Source: Desulfobacteraceae bacterium 4572_19 (lineage in GTDB: Bacteria > Desulfobacterota > Desulfobacteria > Desulfobacterales > NBLS01). From it: a stretch of 8,440 nucleotides of DNA. Where the stretch lies: positions 1-8,440 of the forward strand of contig NBLS01000097.1 in NCBI GenBank assembly GCA_002084385.1. Reading direction: 5' to 3'. Within the stretch, counting starts at the first letter, position 1. Every line of letters starts with the position of its first letter. Positions 480 to 8,440 of this stretch are shown here, in pieces. The notes under the pieces were generated by a model that saw only the letters and a program-made list of their open reading frames with translations, did no database searches and was not told the origin of the DNA. The translations under genes and the position numbers were made by a program.

Positions 480-525
480 TACTTCTCCATTTGCAACCGG
501 TTCATTGGCAGGAGTTAACCTTTTT

Positions 526-628
526 TTGTAAGCGTTCACAATACCTCATCTTCGCATAGACAGCTTGTGAACGCTTACAAATGTGAGGTTACCGAAAAAT
601 CATATTTCTTTGTTGTGAACGGTTACCT
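526..628 (+). repeat. Palindromic repeat, copy 1 (short hairpin plus tail)
   Basis: A perfect 16-bp inverted repeat, ttgtaagcgttcacaa at 526-541 and ttgtgaacgcttacaa at 565-580, encloses a 23-base loop (tacctcatcttcgcatagac...). A tail follows to about 628: aaatgtgaggttaccgaaaa, then catatttc, ending in gtgaacggttac (615-626). The tail can form its own small hairpin, aaatgtga with tcatattt, using one G-U pair. Compared with copies 2 and 4 the inner part of the hairpin is missing. It lies between two minus-strand genes and may act as a processing or attenuation hairpin. Confidence 0.85.
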
Positions 629-650
629 TTTTTTATTGTTTGGTGAATCC

Positions 651-1489: not shown

Positions 1490-1645
1490 GTAAGCGTCCA
1501 CAAGCACCTTATTTTTGCATAAACAGTTGTTATATATTAGGACAACTATTATATGATAAGCTGTTTATGCGAATATAAGAATTTGTGAACGCTTACAAAT
1601 GTGAGATTACCGAAAAATCATATTTCTTGGTCGTGAATGGTTATA
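1490..1645 (+). repeat. Palindromic repeat, copy 2 (full hairpin plus tail)
   Basis: The hairpin runs from gtaagcgtccac (1490-1501) to gtgaacgcttac (1585-1596). Its arms pair imperfectly over about 37 bases and include the exact pair gcataaacag (1517-1526) / ctgtttatgc (1561-1570). The tail, aaatgtgagattaccgaaaa and on to gtgaatggttat (1633-1644), is the intact version of the site that the MITE interrupts in copy 3. An in-frame ATG at 1637 lies inside the tail. This argues that the real start of the following gene is the later ATG at 1667. Confidence 0.85.
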
Positions 1646-1666
1646 AATTATGTTAGTGGGCTTTTT

Positions 1667-1999
1667 ATGAAACAATATGTGATAGATGATATAAGACTTG
1701 AAGATTATGGGAAAATAAAAGATTATCTTGGTGAAACCTATGGTAAACCTGATTTGGGTGGTATTTATTGGATTCCTCTTTTGCAAGAACTATTAACAGA
1801 TGTTCAGGCAGAACATAAGGGATGTCATCCGCTTGTTTTTGCGGTGGATTTATCTGAAAAGAGACTTGAATGTGAATTTCTTGTCCGTACCAAAAAAAGC
1901 ATGCGATGCGATTGTATGGGATATGCAACGCTAACCCAGCGGAACTGGTTGATTGATTATATAGATACAATGTTGGAAAAATTAGGGGTAATTACATAA
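1667..1999 (+). CDS. Conserved hypothetical protein preceding RNase J (110 aa)
   Basis: The product is MKQYVIDDIRLEDYGKIKDY... . I prefer the ATG at 1667 to the in-frame ATG at 1637, because 1637 lies in repeat DNA and 1667 has gtggg six bases upstream. It is a soluble alpha/beta protein with the segments GGIYWIPLLQELL (31-43), PLVFAVDLSEKRLECEFLVRT (55-75) and a cysteine pair C81-D-C83. The C-terminal helix QRNWLIDYIDTMLEKL spans about 91-106. The stop is three bases before the RNase J start, so the two are probably translated as one operon. I recall a similar small protein beside RNase J in related delta-proteobacteria, which would suggest a role linked to RNA turnover, but nothing in the sequence gives a catalytic function. 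The segment LGGIYWIP and the RCDC motif are the best search seeds. Confidence 0.8.
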   Translation: MKQYVIDDIRLEDYGKIKDYLGETYGKPDLGGIYWIPLLQELLTDVQAEHKGCHPLVFAVDLSEKRLECEFLVRTKKSMRCDCMGYATLTQRNWLIDYIDTMLEKLGVIT

Positions 2000-2002
2000 A
2001 TT

Positions 2003-3593
2003 ATGGAAAAAGAAAATGATAAATTAAAAATAATTCCCCTTGGAGGGTTGGGTGAAATCGGCTTAAATATGATGGTGTTTGAGTGGAATGAGGAGCTTTT
2101 TATCATTGATGCGGGAATTATGTTTCCTGAAGATTATATGTTAGGTGTTGATATAGTAATCCCTGATATGGATTATATACGACAGCGAAAAGATAAAATT
2201 GCCGGAATTGTATTAACCCATGCCCATGAAGATCATATTGGTGCTCTTCCATATCTTTTAAAAGATGTAAACTTAAAGGTTTTCGGAACTTCTTTTACCC
2301 TTGGAATTGTTCAAAACAAGTTGCGTGAACACGATCTTCTTTCATCTGCTGTTCTTGTTAATGTCTCCCCCGGTGAAAAAATAACCCTTGGACCCTTTGA
2401 AATTGAATTTATCAGAGTTAGCCATAGTACAATAGATGGTGTGGGGCTTGCTATAAGAACTCCGGTGGGACTTGTTGTGCATACGGGGGATTTTAAAATT
2501 TGTAATGAATCTGTTGATGGTAAAAATACCGATGTGCAAAGTTTTGCAAGGTATGGTAATGAAGGTATCCTTGCACTTTTATCGGATTCAACTAATGTTG
2601 AAAAACCGGGATATACAGGTACAGACCGTGAAGTCGCAGAGGTTTTAGAACGAATTATAGATGAAAGTTCAGGGCGTGTTATAGTTGCCCTTTTTGCATC
2701 TAATGTTGCACGTATTCAACAAATTGTCGATATTGCCGTTAAAAGAAATTGTAAAATAATATTTAATGGTAGAAGTGTTGAGCTTACCGTAAAAGTTGCA
2801 AAAGAGTTAGGTTATATAAATATTCCCGAAGAGATGGAGATAGGCGTTGCCAGAATAAAAGATTATCCTCCTGCAAAAGTTATTATGATTACAACCGGGT
2901 ATTATTAATAATCTTTTCAGACAAGGTGCGAATGTATATTACGATAAAGTAGCAGATGTTCATGTTTCAGGTCATGCTTTTCAGGAAGAGCTGAAATTAA
3001 TGATGAATTTAACTCGCCCGAAGTTTTTTATTCCCATACATGGCGAATACAGACATCTTATTTCCCATGCTGCCATTGCACGTCAGGTTGGAATATTAAA
3101 AGATAATATTCTTTTAATTGAAAATGGTCAGGTCGTATCTTTTTCTAAGGAGCATTCTGTTAATGAGTGTTCTTCTGAAATAGTTGGTGAAATAGTTGGT
3201 GAAATAGTCGGTGAGATTTCCGGTAACGTTACAACCGGTCGAATTTTTGTGGATGGTAAGGGGATAGGGGATGTGGGTAGAAGCGTTCTTAGGGAGCGTC
3301 GTATCCTTTCTGAAGATGGACTTGTTGTTGTTACCATGATAATCGACGAAGAAACAGGAATAGTAATGTATGGACCTGAACTTGTGTCTAAAGGTTTTGT
3401 TTTTTCCAGTGAAACCGGTTATCTCGTGGACGATGCCCAGTGTGTTATCCTTGAAATAGTCGAAGAGGTCGATCCGGATTATCCCGATAGAATTAATATT
3501 ATCAGGGGCAAGATTCAAAAAGCCTTGAAACAATATTTTTATTTTACAATAAAGCGACGGCCTGTAATACTGCCAGTTATAGTACAAATATAA
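2003..3593 (+). pseudogene. rnj: Ribonuclease J, disrupted by internal deletion and frameshift
   Basis: RNase J is a metallo-beta-lactamase / beta-CASP exo- and endoribonuclease for RNA maturation and decay. The first part (301 codons, stop at 2906-2908) has the zinc-site motifs H73-A-H-E-D77-H78, H141 in VSHSTIDG, D163 in HTGDFK and D195 in SDSTN, then the beta-CASP segments ALFASNVARIQQI and IFNGRS. It reads ITTG at 2888-2899, where family members continue with SQGEP. Directly after, in another frame (from 2901), the sequence resumes as INNLFRQGANVYYDKVADVH, followed by SGHAFQEE (beta-CASP motif B His) and IPIHGEYRH (motif C). The C-terminal domain then runs to a normal-looking end at 3593. 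By comparison with the remembered B. subtilis protein about 45 residues are lost, including the conserved SQGEP substrate-binding loop and the PGN segment. The reading frame is also shifted. The internal ATG at 3000 could in principle start a 197-residue C-terminal fragment, which lacks the zinc site. Either a true pseudogene or an assembly/amplification deletion. Confidence 0.85.
3177..3224 (+). repeat. 12-bp tandem repeat in the RNase J linker
   Basis: Four units of gaaatagttggt (3177-3188, 3189-3200, 3201-3212 with one change, 3213-3224 degenerate) encode EIVG-EIVG-EIVG-EISG. The position is the linker between the beta-CASP core and the C-terminal domain. The unit is a multiple of three, so the frame is kept; the pattern looks like replication slippage. 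Confidence 0.9.
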
Positions 3594-3613: not shown

Positions 3614-3889
3614 CTTACAAATGTGAGATTACAGACCTCGTAATTAATATGCTATATTTGTAATTAAAAGTCAGTAATTACGGGTCTCCGTCTGTTTTTT
3701 GGACATTCATAACATTCGTTTATTATTACAACATGCTATCTATTGCTGTTTACAAATATAGATATCGCAATATATAGAATTAAATTTAAATACACATAAG
3801 ATTATGTCCAGTTTAGCCCCTGTAAAAAGGGTTGATTTTACGAGGTCTGGATTACCGAAAAATCACATTTTTTGTTCGTGAACGGTTAC
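3614..3889 (+). repeat. Palindromic repeat tail, copy 3, split by a MITE
   Basis: The left part cttacaaatgtgagatta (3614-3631) and the right part ccgaaaaatcacatttt... to gtgaacggttac (3855-3889) join into the same tail seen in copies 1 and 2 once the 218-bp insert and one 5-bp duplication are removed. The hairpin domain is absent: upstream there is only the RNase J stop, 20 bases away. The sequence after it (ttttttgttgtggcgtatta, 3892-3911) matches part of the tandem 77-bp unit. Confidence 0.85.
3632..3849. mobile_element. 218-bp MITE with 12-bp TIRs and 5-bp target duplication
   Basis: The ends are perfect 12-bp inverted repeats, cagacctcgtaa (3632-3643) and ttacgaggtctg (3838-3849). They are flanked by a direct repeat gatta (3627-3631 and 3850-3854). 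The empty site is visible elsewhere in the window (gtgagattaccgaaaaatc in copy 2), which shows that this is an insertion. No reading frame of useful length lies inside, so it is non-autonomous and needs a transposase from elsewhere. Internally, taattacgggtctc (3677-3691 region) is a near inverted match to the left end, so the left part can fold on itself. The parent insertion sequence family is not identifiable from the ends alone. Confidence 0.85.
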
Positions 3890-3937
3890 CATTTTTTGTT
3901 GTGGCGTATTATTATTCGTGGTGGTTATACAAGTTAT

Positions 3938-5314
3938 TTAGTTTTCTTTAATAAACGTTGAATATCCGATGGATTTTAATTGGTCTTTTATTTTTGTATA
4001 ATTATATTCGTTATTAAAAAGCCAAAGAATTTTGGTTTTTCTGTTTTTCGGGGCAAAAGGTATCGAAGCCCAGCCGTCAGTGAATATAATAAGTCCATCG
4101 TATCCTCTATTTTGATCAATATAGTCTAACACTGGTTGAAAATCTGTTCCTCCTCTTCCCTTTACCTGAACTTTATACTTGGCTTTTTTTAAAGACAATA
4201 AGTCTCCTTTTACTTCAGTATCAAATTGTAAGACTTCTACGCTTTCAATGCCGTATTTAAATAGTTGGTTAATGATTGAAAAAGCATTTCTAACATCTTC
4301 ATTACTAACAGAACCGCTTACATCAACAGCAAATAAAAGTTTGGTACAAAAATCTCGACGGCTTCCCATATATAAAAAACCATAACGGCGACTGGGTTTC
4401 ATTCGGGTTAAAACACGGTTGGAAGATAAAATACTGGCTCGAAATGATTTAAGTATTTCCCTATAATTGATTTTAGGTTTTAAAGTAGCTATAATTTGCT
4501 CTTGGATATGATCAGGAATGGTACCCCAAGAATTATTTGCTAAAATCAGCTCTATTTTATCATTAATTAAGTTACTGTGATATTCATTGATATCCCAAAA
4601 TTCTGTGTTTTCTGCACCGCAAATATTGTAATTGATATATTGGTTGATACCTTTATCATTTTCTTTACAGTCACTCTCTTCAGAAGAGGAAGTTTCTGAT
4701 GATTCTGAAGTTTCTGGTGATTCTGAAGTTTCTGATGACTCTGATGTTTCCTCTTTTGATTCATCTGAAATGTCATTTTTATTTGATTTTTCATTTGAAT
4801 CTTCGTTTAAATCAGGTTCAGATTTATTTTCCTCCCCTTTTCCTGTTTGAGTGTTATTATTTTGTAATTCATTATTTTGCTCTAAATCATTAGACTCTAA
4901 ACTATTTTCCTTCTCCTGCTCTAACAATTGATGATAATAAAATTCAAAATATTTAGTATCATACTTGTCACTTTGAAAAACATCTTTAGCATAAGGAAAA
5001 TCAAGGGGCGTTCTTAGATATTCTTGTACGGTGATATTGCTGGCCGCGTAAGAGATTCTTTGAACATCTTTACGTCTTAAATAGGGATGTTTTAAAATAA
5101 TTCGCATTACTTCAAACTGTAACACCAAAGAGAGTGTTTTCTCATCCAATGCTTTAATAAAGCTTGGATTATACTCAATCTTCCCATCTCCGACCCTGAT
5201 ATTTTGCATATTGGGATTAATACATAACTCATGGGTTGTCCAAACCGCAAAAAATAAAGGTTCTTTTAAATACCAAGATTCGATTATACGGGTAATACGT
5301 TGTTTTGTAAGCAT
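3938..5314 (-). CDS. vWA-domain protein, DUF2201 type (458 aa)
   Basis: The C-terminal domain (about 320-458) is a von Willebrand A fold with a complete metal-ion-dependent adhesion site: D331-V-S333-G-S335, T390 in GRGGTDF and D413 in FTDGWA. This is the DUF2201 vWA-like domain, a usual partner of MoxR ATPases. The N-terminal part (1-130) corresponds to DUF2201_N, a putative metallopeptidase domain. Where family members may carry HExxH, this protein has F67-E-V-M-R71 followed by LKHP, so protease activity is unlikely. Between them, residues 135-220 are acidic, low-complexity and Asn/Ser/Glu-rich, including 6-residue ETSESS repeats; probably a flexible linker. There is no signal peptide, so it is cytoplasmic. 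The ATG at 5314-5312 lies four bases after repeat DNA and has no clear Shine-Dalgarno sequence. It is the last gene of the cassette, after the MoxR gene with a 126-base repeat-filled gap. Likely role (inference from the family): adaptor that recruits targets to the ATPase. Confidence 0.88.
   Translation of the reverse strand: MLTKQRITRIIESWYLKEPLFFAVWTTHELCINPNMQNIRVGDGKIEYNPSFIKALDEKTLSLVLQFEVMRIILKHPYLRRKDVQRISYAASNITVQEYLRTPLDFPYAKDVFQSDKYDTKYFEFYYHQLLEQEKENSLESNDLEQNNELQNNNTQTGKGEENKSEPDLNEDSNEKSNKNDISDESKEETSESSETSESPETSESSETSSSEESDCKENDKGINQYINYNICGAENTEFWDINEYHSNLINDKIELILANNSWGTIPDHIQEQIIATLKPKINYREILKSFRASILSSNRVLTRMKPSRRYGFLYMGSRRDFCTKLLFAVDVSGSVSNEDVRNAFSIINQLFKYGIESVEVLQFDTEVKGDLLSLKKAKYKVQVKGRGGTDFQPVLDYIDQNRGYDGLIIFTDGWASIPFAPKNRKTKILWLFNNEYNYTKIKDQLKSIGYSTFIKEN
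4689..4760 (-). repeat. 18-bp tandem repeat coding an acidic 6-residue repeat
   Basis: Plus-strand units gaagtttctgatgattct occur at 4689-4706, 4707-4724 and 4725-4742, with a diverged fourth at 4743-4760. On the coding strand they give ETSESS/ETSESP-like hexapeptides in the acidic linker of the vWA protein (about residues 187-212). The frame-preserving unit suggests slippage expansion in a disordered linker. Confidence 0.85.
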
Positions 5315-5318
5315 TTTT

Positions 5319-5464
5319 GCAACCGTTCACGAACAAGAAATGTGATTTTTCGGTAATTTCACATTTGTAAGCGTTCACAAGTTCTTATATTCGCATAAAC
5401 AGCTTGTCATATAATAGTTGTCCTATATATGACAAGCTGTTTATGCGAAGATGAGGTATTGTGA
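5319..5464 (-). repeat. Palindromic repeat, copy 4 (full length, minus orientation)
   Basis: The tail (5319-5366, starting gcaaccgttcacgaacaaga on the plus strand) is followed by the hairpin domain from gtaagcgttcac (5367-5378) to about 5464, where similarity to copy 1 ends after gatgaggtattgtga. The hairpin core is a perfect 24-bp stem, 5390-5413 with 5426-5449, around a 12-base loop. It overlaps the 3' end of the MoxR gene: the stop codon (5443-5441) is inside the stem and the last seven residues (SQYLIFA) are repeat-coded. It fills the gap to the vWA gene and could modulate expression between the two. Confidence 0.9.
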
Positions 5465-6445
5465 TGCAACATGGGCAATTGCTTCCATCTGCTTTACCTG
5501 TTTTAGATGAAGTAAATATTTATGAAAATTTTTCAATATAGTCTTTTTTTTAGCAGGTTTATAATTGTCACCATTGAGCCAAAATACGATTTGCTCATTT
5601 AAAAAGATATAATCTTTTAATTTAAAAGATTTTAATTTACCCTTGTATTTACCAAAACTTAATAAAAGCTGTTCGGGTGAAACTTTTAAAGTGCTTCCTA
5701 AACTCTTTTTAAGATTCATGGCAACCTTTACACCCACAATACCGGCAATCGCTTTGATATGAAGGTCGCTTATATCTTCAAAGGAACTAATTAAGTTAGA
5801 TACTCTTTCCCACGCTCTACGGTCTGGGGTCTTATTAAGTCCGGAACCGATTGGGAAACCATCTTGACCCTCAAAAGCCTCGTCTTGATCAAGAAAATGA
5901 TGATGTTTTTGAATAAAGCTTATTATTCGTCCATCAATATCATTATCGTTAGCCCATAATAGCCAATCTTCCACCGTTGGAGCAAATTCATATACATTAA
6001 ATCGTGACACCAACGCAGGATCCAAATCAGTTAGTTGATATTCTTCACCTTCATTAACGGCAGATATAATAATACTGCCTTTTGGTAATTTTTTACCTGC
6101 CAAGGTTTTATTTAACGTTAAATCCTGAACAGATTGAAGAATTTCAGGGCGGGCACGGTTTAATTCATCCAAAAATAAAACAATCGGTTTATTATCGGTA
6201 GGCCACCAATATGGCGGTAAAAATTCCGAATGTCCCGTCTTTTCGTCTTTATGCATAAGACCAATTAAATCACCCGGATCACTCATTTGTCCTAAAAAAA
6301 AAGGAATGACCTTTATTTTTTTATAAAATTTGGTGATAATTTGCGATTTACCAATGCCGTGTTTACCAATTAACATAATGTTTTGTTCAGATGGAGTTAC
6401 ACTTAATATTTCGATTAACTCCGATGTATCAATTTTTATAGCCAT
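5441..6445 (-). CDS. MoxR-family AAA+ ATPase (334 aa)
   Basis: A cytoplasmic AAA+ ATPase of the MoxR group. Visible motifs: Walker A G27-K-H-G-I-G-K33-S34, the MoxR-typical QMSDPGDLIGL (53-63), Walker B LFLD93-E94-LNRA, sensor 1 N131 in SAVNEGEEY, arginine finger R148 in LDPALVSRF, and sensor 2 DRRAW (208-212). The lid and a helical C-terminal extension follow. Length is normal for the family. I chose ATG 6445-6443 (MAIKID); a TTG four codons upstream at 6457 directly follows an in-frame stop and is less likely. No good Shine-Dalgarno is visible, and the upstream sequence is a 71-bp inverted-repeat element. It is the middle gene of the cassette, between the 242-residue protein and the vWA protein. 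By family precedent it forms a hexameric ring that remodels proteins with its vWA partner. Its C-terminal residues are encoded by the inserted palindromic repeat, so the ancestral end has probably been replaced. Confidence 0.93.
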   Translation of the reverse strand: MAIKIDTSELIEILSVTPSEQNIMLIGKHGIGKSQIITKFYKKIKVIPFFLGQMSDPGDLIGLMHKDEKTGHSEFLPPYWWPTDNKPIVLFLDELNRARPEILQSVQDLTLNKTLAGKKLPKGSIIISAVNEGEEYQLTDLDPALVSRFNVYEFAPTVEDWLLWANDNDIDGRIISFIQKHHHFLDQDEAFEGQDGFPIGSGLNKTPDRRAWERVSNLISSFEDISDLHIKAIAGIVGVKVAMNLKKSLGSTLKVSPEQLLLSFGKYKGKLKSFKLKDYIFLNEQIVFWLNGDNYKPAKKKTILKNFHKYLLHLKQVKQMEAIAHVASQYLIFA

Positions 6446-6460
6446 AATTATTATCAATCA

Positions 6461-6531
6461 TAAGGGTTCATAAAAAAATAACTTGTACTTAGTAAATGCT
6501 GGTATTCTAATTATTTTTTTGTGAACCCTAA
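6461..6531. mobile_element. 71-bp inverted-repeat element (possible mini-MITE)
   Basis: Arms of 21 bases, 6461-6481 (taagggttcataaaaaaata plus a) and 6511-6531, are inverted copies matching at 19 of 21 positions, with a 29-base centre. The outer ends carry the GTGAACCCTTA core that recurs through the window. It fills almost the whole gap between the MoxR gene and the upstream 242-residue gene, and the upstream gene's TAG (6530-6528) lies in its end. I could not confirm a target duplication, so mobility is inferred from structure only. Confidence 0.65.
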
Positions 6532-7256
6532 GTTATCCAATTCGGTTCATCATAATATCTAGACATGTAAGAACGTATTTGAAACTTTAAGCCCGAATTA
6601 CGTAAGTCTCTAATTGTTTGAATCGTGGTATGTAAACTTTCAAAAACGTCGTGAAACTTGTTATAAGGAATATTAATTTTCATCTCCTCTGCTTTTCCTA
6701 AACAGATAGTTAATTCTGCATATTGACCATATCTTACCATGCAAAATTTAAATTTATCCTCCTTGGCAATTTCATGGATTTTAGCCTGAATTGCCTTGTA
6801 TTTAATATCCTTAATCTTTTCTTGTTTAATTTTCTTATTTTCTCTTTTAAGATAATTTGCAGCCAATCTTTTATACTCTTGTATCATTTTATCAACAAAC
6901 GTATCCATCTGTTTTAGATGATAAACATGTGTATAAATCCTATAGTTATCCACTATCAGTAATTCATTTTTCTCGTTAAACTCCAAGTAAAATTTTTGAT
7001 CCTCATAATATTTTGAAGGGGATATAACTTCAAAATAGCATTTGTTTTTATCTACTCTCATGTGAGAATCTGAATATGAAGCATAATAAGGGTTCTCTAA
7101 AAGTTTAATGCCCTCCATTATTTCCAACTTTTGCTTTATATCTGAAATAAACTCTATCTGTTCTTCCAAGCTATGTTGAATAATAGGCTCTTCGCCGTGA
7201 AAGTGTTCTCGAAAGATTTTTATGATGGTACTGTTACTCAATGATAATTTTGCCAT
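6528..7256 (-). CDS. Unknown protein, first gene of the MoxR-vWA cassette (242 aa)
   Basis: I do not recognise this protein. ATG at 7256-7254; a weak tagagtg ribosome binding sequence lies about eight bases upstream. It has no signal peptide or membrane segment. Visible regions: a helical N-terminus (about 5-50), a mixed segment with many aromatic residues (YYASYSDSHMRVDKNKCYFE, 57-76, to DNYRIYTHVYH, 103-113), a long, strongly basic helix or coiled coil (about 115-168, with KRENKKIKQEKIKDIKYK), and a C-terminal alpha/beta segment (AELTICLGKAEEMKINIPYN, 180-199, then helix to NWIT). The basic helix could bind nucleic acid or pack against partners. It starts the apparent operon with the ATPase and vWA genes, and a promoter at 7316-7344 precedes it. 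Its location suggests a dedicated third component: substrate, adaptor or effector. The gene is bracketed by direct copies of the GTGAACCCTTA core, and its stop codon lies in one of them. Confidence 0.8.
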   Translation of the reverse strand: MAKLSLSNSTIIKIFREHFHGEEPIIQHSLEEQIEFISDIKQKLEIMEGIKLLENPYYASYSDSHMRVDKNKCYFEVISPSKYYEDQKFYLEFNEKNELLIVDNYRIYTHVYHLKQMDTFVDKMIQEYKRLAANYLKRENKKIKQEKIKDIKYKAIQAKIHEIAKEDKFKFCMVRYGQYAELTICLGKAEEMKINIPYNKFHDVFESLHTTIQTIRDLRNSGLKFQIRSYMSRYYDEPNWIT

Positions 7257-7315
7257 TTTTTTATCACTCTACTTTTGTGAACCCTTATTTTAGAAAATAA
7301 ATATTATTTTATGTA

Positions 7316-7344
7316 AATCTAATAACTTATTTCTCTTATGTCAA
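7316..7344 (-). promoter_or_regulatory. Sigma-70-type promoter of the MoxR-vWA cassette
   Basis: On the minus strand a perfect -35 TTGACA (7344-7339) is followed by exactly 17 bases and -10 TAGATT (7321-7316). It lies about 60 bases upstream of the start of the 242-residue gene. This is the best promoter match I see in the window. It sits between the repeat tail at 7369-7416 and the repeat core at 7277-7288, so it belongs to the cassette. Confidence 0.6.
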
Positions 7345-7368
7345 GAGGGAAGTTATGCTGAAATCTGT

Positions 7369-7416
7369 GCAACCGTTCACGAACAAGAAATGTGATTTTT
7401 CGGTAATCTCACAAAT
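7369..7416 (-). repeat. Palindromic repeat tail, copy 5 (tail only, minus orientation)
   Basis: gcaaccgttcacgaacaaga through tttttcggtaatctcac to 7416 matches the tail of copy 4 almost base for base, without the hairpin domain. It is inverted relative to copy 3 at 3855-3889, so the two tails face each other across the three-gene cassette. The small inverted repeat aaatgtga / tcacattt of the tail is conserved. Confidence 0.85.
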
Positions 7417-7476: not shown

Positions 7477-7583
7477 GGCGAGCGTGTAATTAATTGGCTG
7501 ATGGTCTATATGAAAATATTTTTGAGTGAACCCTTAACATATGTAAATTGTTATTTATAATTCATTTGCAGGATATCTGTTTT

Positions 7584-8330
7584 ATGCGTAAGGAAATTAT
7601 CGTACTTATTTTATTTTTTTGTTTTTTGTTGGTATCCATAAGTTTATTCTCATACGATCCTTCTGATCCTTCAATAAATCACGTTGTAAATAAGGGACAG
7701 GTTGTTCATAATCTTTTTGGAAAAGTGGGCTCTCACATTGCAGGTCTTTGTATCGGGTTATTTGGAGTTGGTGCATTTTGGTTTCCCGTCTTACTTTTAA
7801 TGGCTGGAATTCATTATTTTATGCATCGTTCTGCACAGGTGATGTTTTACATTGTTATAGGTGGAGTTTTGCTGATTATTGCCACAGGCGGTTTTACAGC
7901 TTTATACGGTGATAGTTGTATTATCTGGGGTAAGAAAGTATCCTCTGGTGGAATAGTTGGTATTCCTGTTAAGTCATTTCTTTTGGAATATACAAATAAA
8001 ATAGGTAGTATTCTTGTTCTTATTTTAACATTTTCTATAGGTTTTATCCTTGTTACAAGAATCTCAATTCTTGCCTTTATAGCAAGATGTTGGGCATATA
8101 TAATTGAATTTGATAAATTTCTTTGGAAAAAGATTAAGCTTCTTTGGGATAAAATTAAGTTTAAATTTAAGTTTGATAAAAATAATTATGGAAAAATTGG
8201 AAAATTATTTCAGGTAACAAGATATAAAATTGCAAAAATATTTAATAGAAAAAAAGTGGAACAGCTGTCTGAAAATGGGATGTCGCTTTCTGATATGGCG
8301 ATGTCTGAAAATAGGAAGTTGGCTGTATAG
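7584..8330 (+). pseudogene. ftsK: DNA translocase FtsK, N-terminal membrane domain; frameshifted and cut by the window edge
   Basis: FtsK is the septum-anchored DNA pump that segregates chromosome termini at division. The ATG at 7584 has AGGAT nine bases upstream and gives the family-typical start MRKEIIVLILFFCFLLVSIS with SYDPSDPS after the first helix; the in-frame ATG at 7548 only adds an atypical dozen residues. Hydrophobic segments at about 5-23, 51-79, 86-108 and 138-158 fit the four-helix FtsK membrane domain, followed by a basic stretch (180-225). Then the linker begins and reading stops at TAG 8328-8330 after 248 codons. The frame starting at 8327 stays open to the right edge and reads as more of the same linker (KELSENEQLSGIEGQSESKL), with the same SEN repeats. 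So one base has been lost (or two gained) between about 8312 and 8330. The motor and gamma domains would lie beyond the window. Real mutation or sequencing error cannot be told apart here. Confidence 0.85.
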
Positions 8331-8398
8331 TATCACATGGAAATAAAGAGTTGTCTGAAAATGAGCAATTATCAGGCATAGAAGGGCAGTCTGAAAGC
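8265..8398 (+). repeat. Degenerate repeats in the FtsK linker
   Basis: The motif tgtctgaaaatg recurs as ctgtctgaaaatggg (8265-8279), atgtctgaaaatagg (8301-8315) and ttgtctgaaaatgag (8351-8365), with a weaker cagtctgaaagc (8387-8398). They code for LSEN / MSEN / LSEN / QSES, the last two in the shifted frame. Reading the same peptide on both sides of the stop is what identifies the frameshift. Confidence 0.75.
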
Positions 8399-8440
8399 AA
8401 GTTGGAGTCAGAAACAAAAATATCCAATAGTGCTGTTTCC

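Follow-up and report, generated by a model that had tools for sequence, protein, structure and literature searches.

A putative T-moxR-vWA operon in a Desulfobacteraceae contig and its relatives in the Parabeggiatoa family

Characterised MoxR-vWA pairs work in the assembly of complexes; the vWA protein captures a substrate peptide and the ATPase ring changes the conformation of the substrate (PMC7159879, available in part). In VMAP (vWA-MoxR associated protein) ternary systems, as described in the same source, the gene for a fast-evolving third protein precedes adjacent MoxR and vWA genes, and such systems have been reported from multicellular prokaryotes, Beggiatoa included. Here we describe a block of three genes with this order in contig NBLS01000097.1 of Desulfobacteraceae bacterium 4572_19, encoding a protein without an accepted family, which we call T, a MoxR-type ATPase and a DUF2201-type vWA protein; the whole 8,440-nt stretch analysed is called the window. 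Our best reading is that the trio is laid out like the VMAP ternary conflict systems and that its third protein is unrelated to theirs.

The likeness to each described system was incomplete. Unlike the VMAP systems, T carried no VMAP-named domain (there was no such Pfam match at E ≤ 1 on T or on seven relatives), the vWA protein is a putative DUF2201 pseudo-peptidase, and no effector or peptidase domain was found fused on any of the three proteins. The Pfam library used presumably includes the VMAP-C model. The FtsH/beta-propeller ternary systems have the MoxR-vWA core in common with the window; however, their MoxR P-loop is often GXXXTAKS (PMC7159879, in part) whereas that of the window is GKHGIGKS, the match of the window MoxR to bpMoxR, the ternary-system model, stayed under its cut-off (19 against 27 bits), and the three proteins include neither an FtsH pair nor a beta-propeller. 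RavA-ViaA and other MoxR-vWA assembly chaperones share the biochemical logic of a MoxR ATPase with a vWA partner; their vWA proteins belong to another family, and the available portion of PMC7159879 mentions no T-like partner for them.

The three proteins of the block

From an ORF listing of the window and a Pfam scan of nine of its ORFs we confirmed the proposal of an earlier, sequence-only reading that the block encodes MoxR and vWA together with one further protein: AAA_5 and DUF2201 were found over their cut-offs, with the T ORF upstream. The same reading had placed the trio opposite to its neighbours, and ORFs and profiles agreed: T, moxR and vWA lie on the minus strand between two plus-strand neighbours, an rnj-type gene and the beginning of ftsK. 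Overall, its observation was confirmed in part, and its interpretation supported in part.

T gave no accepted family in Pfam and other profile scans. Among 5.8 billion proteins it had four relatives, 76, 64, 51, and 49% identical, of which one was named, from Parabeggiatoa; a scan of genome contigs gave four loci, all from Candidatus Parabeggiatoa. Its predicted model has a long helix (residues 115 to 167) between small alpha/beta parts (pLDDT 83, pTM 0.60), and in a fold search neither PDB nor BFVD yielded a match to it at E ≤ 1e-3. There was no match to T on plasmids, in viral contigs, or in PHROG, and no description of it was found in the open-licence PMC papers searched. Two candidates were rejected: PRTRC_E as the family of T (16.3 bits against a cut-off of 26, in one of eight members), and an ORF of a phage contig (L087:4274-5188) as a T homologue (hhalign probability 1.9%). 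T would represent a third partner family for MoxR-vWA machines, with very few sequenced relatives.

The MoxR protein matched Pfam AAA_5 at 37 bits (cut-off 22) and has Walker A and B motifs, LVSRF, and DRRAW; LVSRF we take to be of the arginine-finger type. When we compared it with the best 119 other sequences of 4,442 homologues found, 116 were 358 to 409 aa long as against 334 aa in the window. The window protein follows its homologues to about residue 328 and then ends in QYLIFA and a stop, which are encoded by a repeat; the repeat replaced the MoxR C-terminus in the window, and, as this C-terminus is lost, the system may be impaired in this contig. One listed relative, P0021, bears PF20030 in a precomputed domain list. 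Matches of MoxR to plasmids (79 records) and phages (315 records) were all distant, at less than 60% identity.

The vWA protein scored over the Pfam cut-offs with both DUF2201_N (45.4 bits against 23.2) and DUF2201 (49 bits against 26.4) and retains the MIDAS-type motifs DVSGS, GRGGTDF, and TDG. Canonical DUF2201 "putative metallopeptidase" proteins are alike in having DUF2201_N plus a vWA-like architecture, but they keep the HExxH zinc site that the window subfamily has lost: HEALH was present in 12 of 12 canonical proteins read from the Parabeggiatoa family, whereas FEVMR, FEAMR, or CEVMR stood in its place in 10 of 10 window-type proteins read, including FEVMR in the window itself. The vWA protein is probably a pseudo-peptidase with a dead peptidase site and a scaffold role.

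The pair is also a phage module: N4-type phages encode gp24 (AAA ATPase) and gp25 (vWFA), whose function is given as unknown (PMC2784036, in part), and the MoxR and vWA proteins of the window match PHROG families 1297 and 1314. PHROG 1314 is labelled "HNH endonuclease" and matches vWA residues 21 to 440; the label looks wrong. A 132-kb contig of a viral collection (L087, 900-6693) encodes a MoxR protein 50% identical to that of the window together with a DUF2201-type vWA protein in which NELDR is found and HExxH is not.

Relatives in the Parabeggiatoa family and the origin of the block

Gene order was compared in the family group assigned to genome G003 (Parabeggiatoa sp. nov. 2, isolate 4572_84), 42 genomes which we call the Parabeggiatoa family and take to be Beggiatoaceae; G, L, and P numbers are our own handles for genomes, loci, and proteins. 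The trio was also found elsewhere: T, moxR, and vWA lie in this order on one strand in the window, in G003 (L008), and in G309 (L051), and with a diverged T in G304 (L052) and G305 (L053). In hhalign, 135 columns of the T profile aligned with the diverged T (E 9.6e-7, probability 91%); there are two T subfamilies within the family. G302 has the order T-T-moxR (L082), with its vWA gene on another contig (L046), and G303 holds broken pieces of moxR and vWA. T occurred in 10 of the 42 genomes, with weak matches in G304, G305, and G310, window-type MoxR (E below 1e-100) in 9, and window-type MoxR or vWA in 11. Nine genomes had both T and window-type MoxR/vWA, two had MoxR/vWA alone, 30 had neither, and one had T alone; this last, G310, has a short match containing a stop. 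Beside the stand-alone vWA gene of G001 (L044, 2479-5740) lies a three-gene set like NsnA-NsnB-NsnC, each with a PADLOC E of 1e-102 or better.

T evolves fastest of the three block proteins: against G003, dN was 0.365 for T, 0.259 for vWA, and 0.106 for MoxR, with synonymous sites near or at saturation. T is also multiplied, with four matches in G003 (one with stops), four in G302 (two of them fragments on one contig), three in G309, and two each in G001 and G002. A protein that is both fastest-evolving and present in up to four copies per genome fits a specificity or client role.

The flanks of the block look Desulfobacterales-like. At E ≤ 1e-5 the 110-aa gene upstream of rnj had 299 matches, counting itself, and six of the 120 listed were named: Desulfonema magnum, two Desulfobacterales, an uncultured Desulfobacter, Desulfosudaceae, and a sixth labelled Pseudomonadota only. 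RNase J was found above cut-off in 0 of 42 Parabeggiatoa-family genomes versus 9 of 14 controls. We read the window as part of a chromosome of Desulfobacterales type. The block itself pointed to another phylum, in partial support of the earlier suggestion of an inserted block: the closest named relatives of T are from Parabeggiatoa, and MoxR groups with that family. In a tree of 111 rows the window MoxR fell in a 30-row clade (SH-aLRT 96) that includes G001, G003, G283, G284, G302, G303, and G309 and excludes four named Desulfobacterales proteins. In a tree of 17 rows, grouping the window MoxR with all four of these was rejected (AU p 4e-8), as was pairing it singly with three of them. The MoxR proteins of G304 and G305, whose loci carry the diverged T of about 298 aa, joined Magnetomorum HK-1 with 100% support, which by its sequence placement is a second cross-phylum link between the Parabeggiatoa family and Desulfobacterales. 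The third-MoxR-vWA operon was likely shared horizontally, and the two T subfamilies suggest that the Parabeggiatoa family may have been the reservoir. Comparable exchange has been described for Desulfonema ishimotonii (PMC6390638, in part). The actin Bbp, an actin-like protein of big bacteria, has been exchanged between Gammaproteobacteria such as Beggiatoa and Desulfobacterota; its pattern of spread is shared with the trio, but the protein is unrelated (PMC10580974, in part).

Mechanism and rival explanations

We lean, with restrained confidence, towards reading T, MoxR and vWA, in this order, as an AAA+ remodelling operon of three components. What can be read directly from the sequences is the composition and gene order of this operon, the co-occurrence of its genes, their motifs, the loss of the zinc site, the split relatives, and the later arrival of repeats at its junctions. 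By analogy with characterised MoxR-vWA pairs, MoxR would form a hexameric ATPase ring, and the vWA pseudo-peptidase scaffold would hold a substrate peptide through its MIDAS and pass the ATPase stroke on to the substrate. T would be the system's own partner, an adaptor, sensor, or client; its conserved C-terminal module may dock on the MoxR-vWA machine, and its variable N-terminal half may recognise a target or itself be remodelled. More tentatively, and with less than even confidence, we propose a further MoxR-vWA ternary class, in which giant sulfur oxidisers and sulfate reducers have exchanged, as one unit, a fast-diversifying T and the MoxR and dead-peptidase vWA encoded downstream of it; T would be its sensor or client module, at work either in conflict or in organising large filamentous cells.

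Several results weigh against the remodelling operon or its horizontal history. The three genes are scattered in G001, and T lies apart from moxR-vWA in G284, so they need not form an operon; T and vWA occur without a MoxR match in G002, G283 has moxR-vWA at a contig end with no T match, and G308 has a vWA piece only, again with no T match. Class-wide searches found T in 1 of 274 and 1 of 369 genomes, the centre genome alone, so T is rare. The Fisher p of 1.2e-6 for co-occurrence of T with window-type MoxR/vWA among the 42 genomes overstates the case, because these genomes are related to one another and the sets were chosen with the scores already in view. Any contact between T and the other two proteins is a predicted one. 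The host assignment is probable, being based on the named relatives of one neighbouring gene and the RNase J contrast, and 31 of the 42 family genomes gave weak matches to the RNase J profile, none of them above 41 bits where the cut-off is 400. Finally, the AU test did not reject P0029, from Desulfobacterales, as the partner of the window MoxR (p 0.18), so its history could be partly vertical.

As to the task of such an operon, a role in defence is possible. Were the block a MoxR-vWA ternary system for conflict, serving defence or self-recognition, T would be a VMAP-like sensor and the MoxR-vWA pair would license or restrain the response. The VMAP-like gene order, reported from organisms of multicellular habit (PMC7159879, in part), the fast evolution and multiplication of the third protein, and horizontal spread are consistent with this, as is the position of some copies near NsnABC-like genes (the G001 vWA gene), methyltransferases (G003), or a Fic gene (G002). 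However, we singled out these defence-type neighbours by eye and had no baseline for them, and many others look, also by eye, like housekeeping genes; the three proteins showed no effector domain, nor did T give a VMAP-named match; and a PADLOC-DB scan of the three block proteins and one neighbour gave no convincing anti-phage match, its only result being a weak match of MoxR to Avs4 (15.8 bits, residues 2-51). We regard a conflict system as unlikely; if the block is one, it extends the range of such systems proposed for prokaryotes of multicellular habit. The other candidate role, which we rate as somewhat less unlikely yet still doubtful, is that of a chaperone which, much as RavA-ViaA or CbbQO do, assembles or maintains some cellular structure in large filamentous bacteria, with T as the adaptor specific to a putative client and an exchange like that of Bbp. 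CbbQO is a MoxR-vWA pair acting in complex assembly, the work also described for the characterised pairs, and the neighbours read as housekeeping-like fit such a role; Parabeggiatoa is, we assume, filamentous. Against this, only some members of the Parabeggiatoa family carry the trio. An assembly system would join the short list of genes, like Bbp, that move between unrelated large bacteria.

The remodelling operon must also be set against two explanations that turn on the repeats. The sequence-only reading had taken the block for an inserted or inverting cassette between inverted repeat tails. Two near-identical inverted stretches do exist (3850-3887 and 7371-7408, 38 nt, 97% complementary), but such stretches also occur away from the ends of the block: a search with a 43-nt core, for which the 7371 copy served as source, found it five times in the window, at 582+, 1600+, 3845+, 5321−, and 7371− (38, 40, 37, 42, and 43 of 43 matches, respectively; the best match among 100 shuffles was 27), and the copy at 5321− sits within the block, at the moxR/vWA junction. 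The left tail starts at 3850 because its repeat copy was split by another element, the 218-bp insert at 3632-3849; with this insert removed down to one GATTA, the sequence aligned with the other repeat copies. As the copies are dispersed, with one inside the block, the two tails define no cassette; they belong to a family of scattered repeats and are not cassette ends. No recombinase or transposase was found among the nine ORFs scanned against Pfam, the three of the block included, and the repeat was found in 0 of 42 Parabeggiatoa-family genomes, and with a second query copy in 0 of 3, both in scans without a positive control. A repeat-bounded mobile or inverting cassette is thus largely refuted, and we consider it very improbable; inverted repeats that flank a block can be ordinary scattered repeats. 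The block might, on the other hand, be a decaying remnant in this host, with moxR cut by a repeat, elements in its spacers, and frame breaks in rnj and ftsK. The shortened MoxR, the repeats in both spacers, and the gap in rnj speak for decay, and G303, with its broken moxR and vWA pieces, provides an example of it elsewhere; but the T and vWA frames are open over their full length, the catalytic motifs of MoxR are intact, and the breaks in rnj and ftsK may come from assembly. Decay is a plausible reading, which we hold tentatively and below an even chance.

Repeat copies, flanking genes, and minor features

Table 1. Positions of the block genes, neighbouring genes, and repeat elements in the window
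Feature	Position	Strand	Remarks
T	6528..7256	-	242 aa; ORF; no accepted family
moxR	5441..6445	-	AAA_5 ATPase; 334 aa counted from ATG; last residues encoded by repeat
vWA	3938..5314	-	458 aa; DUF2201 protein; degenerate zinc site FEVMR; MIDAS-type motifs intact
rnj	2003..3593	+	Broken; two pieces in different frames; TIGR00649 positions 1-294 and 345-545
ftsK, N-terminal part	7572..8330	+	FtsK_4TM; Pfam 127 bits
110-aa gene upstream of rnj	1667..1999	+	Desulfobacterales-type relatives
Right "tail", repeat copy upstream of T	7371..7413	-	43/43 core matches (core source)
Left "tail", right half of split repeat copy	3850..3890	+	Repeat comparison
Left half of same split repeat copy	3614..3631	+	Repeat comparison
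Nested MITE-like insert, 218 bp	3632..3849		Perfect 12-bp inverted ends; 5-bp duplication GATTA
Repeat copy outside block	1538..1647	+	110 nt; 93% complementary to 5316-5425
Repeat copy outside block	525..630	+	Repeat comparison; core match
Repeat copy within block	5316..5464	-	Gives moxR its last codons and stop; 39-nt inverted arms
Small inverted-end element, T-moxR spacer	6446..6530		Ends paired 18/19

The RNase J profile indicated that about 50 residues are missing between the two pieces of rnj. The ftsK frame closes at 8328-8330 (within 8328-8440), and the next frame seems, as read by eye, to continue past 8330, so a frame break in ftsK is likely; in rnj as in ftsK, the break may reflect real decay or an error of assembly. 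No adjacency of rnj and ftsK turned up in scans of viral contigs. The earlier suggestion that the block has its own promoter did not hold up: a sigma-70-like site with 10 of 12 matches lies upstream of T (7344-7316), yet the scan found 27 such sites as compared with 22.2 (sd 6.0) in shuffles, so that the site is no evidence of a promoter. Rfam gave nothing at gathering scores in the window.

The small element in the T-moxR spacer had a local score of 17 versus at most 14 in 500 shuffles; in G309, by comparison, T and moxR are only about 10 bases apart. In the Parabeggiatoa isolate 4572_84 (L008, 9770-10250) this spacer holds a different short repeat, which lengthens the moxR frame upstream, and repeats thus occupy the spacer in both lineages. 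Two of the longer copies of the dispersed repeat, at 1538-1647 and 5316-5425, can be aligned as inverted sequences over their full 110 nt, and the repeat pattern had no match in viral contigs. The 12-bp inverted ends of the element at 3632-3849 are CAGACCTCGTAA.

The motif GTGAA[CT][CG][CG]TTA, chosen after the repeats had been read, occurred 11 times in the window (at 539, 567, 615, 643, 1123, 1585, 1633, 3878, 5378, 7277, and 7526) against a mean of 0.03 in 300 first-order random sequences; recurring in the repeats and in other spacers, it may mark the ends of the repeat family. In the repeat copy at the end of moxR (5375-5464), the 39-nt arms are 87% complementary and enclose a 12-nt loop, and they might work as a hairpin in the moxR-vWA spacer. 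Positions 1211-1441 hold three tandem 77-bp units, the second and third 96% and 65% identical to the first, with a 22-bp piece in common with 3891-3912.

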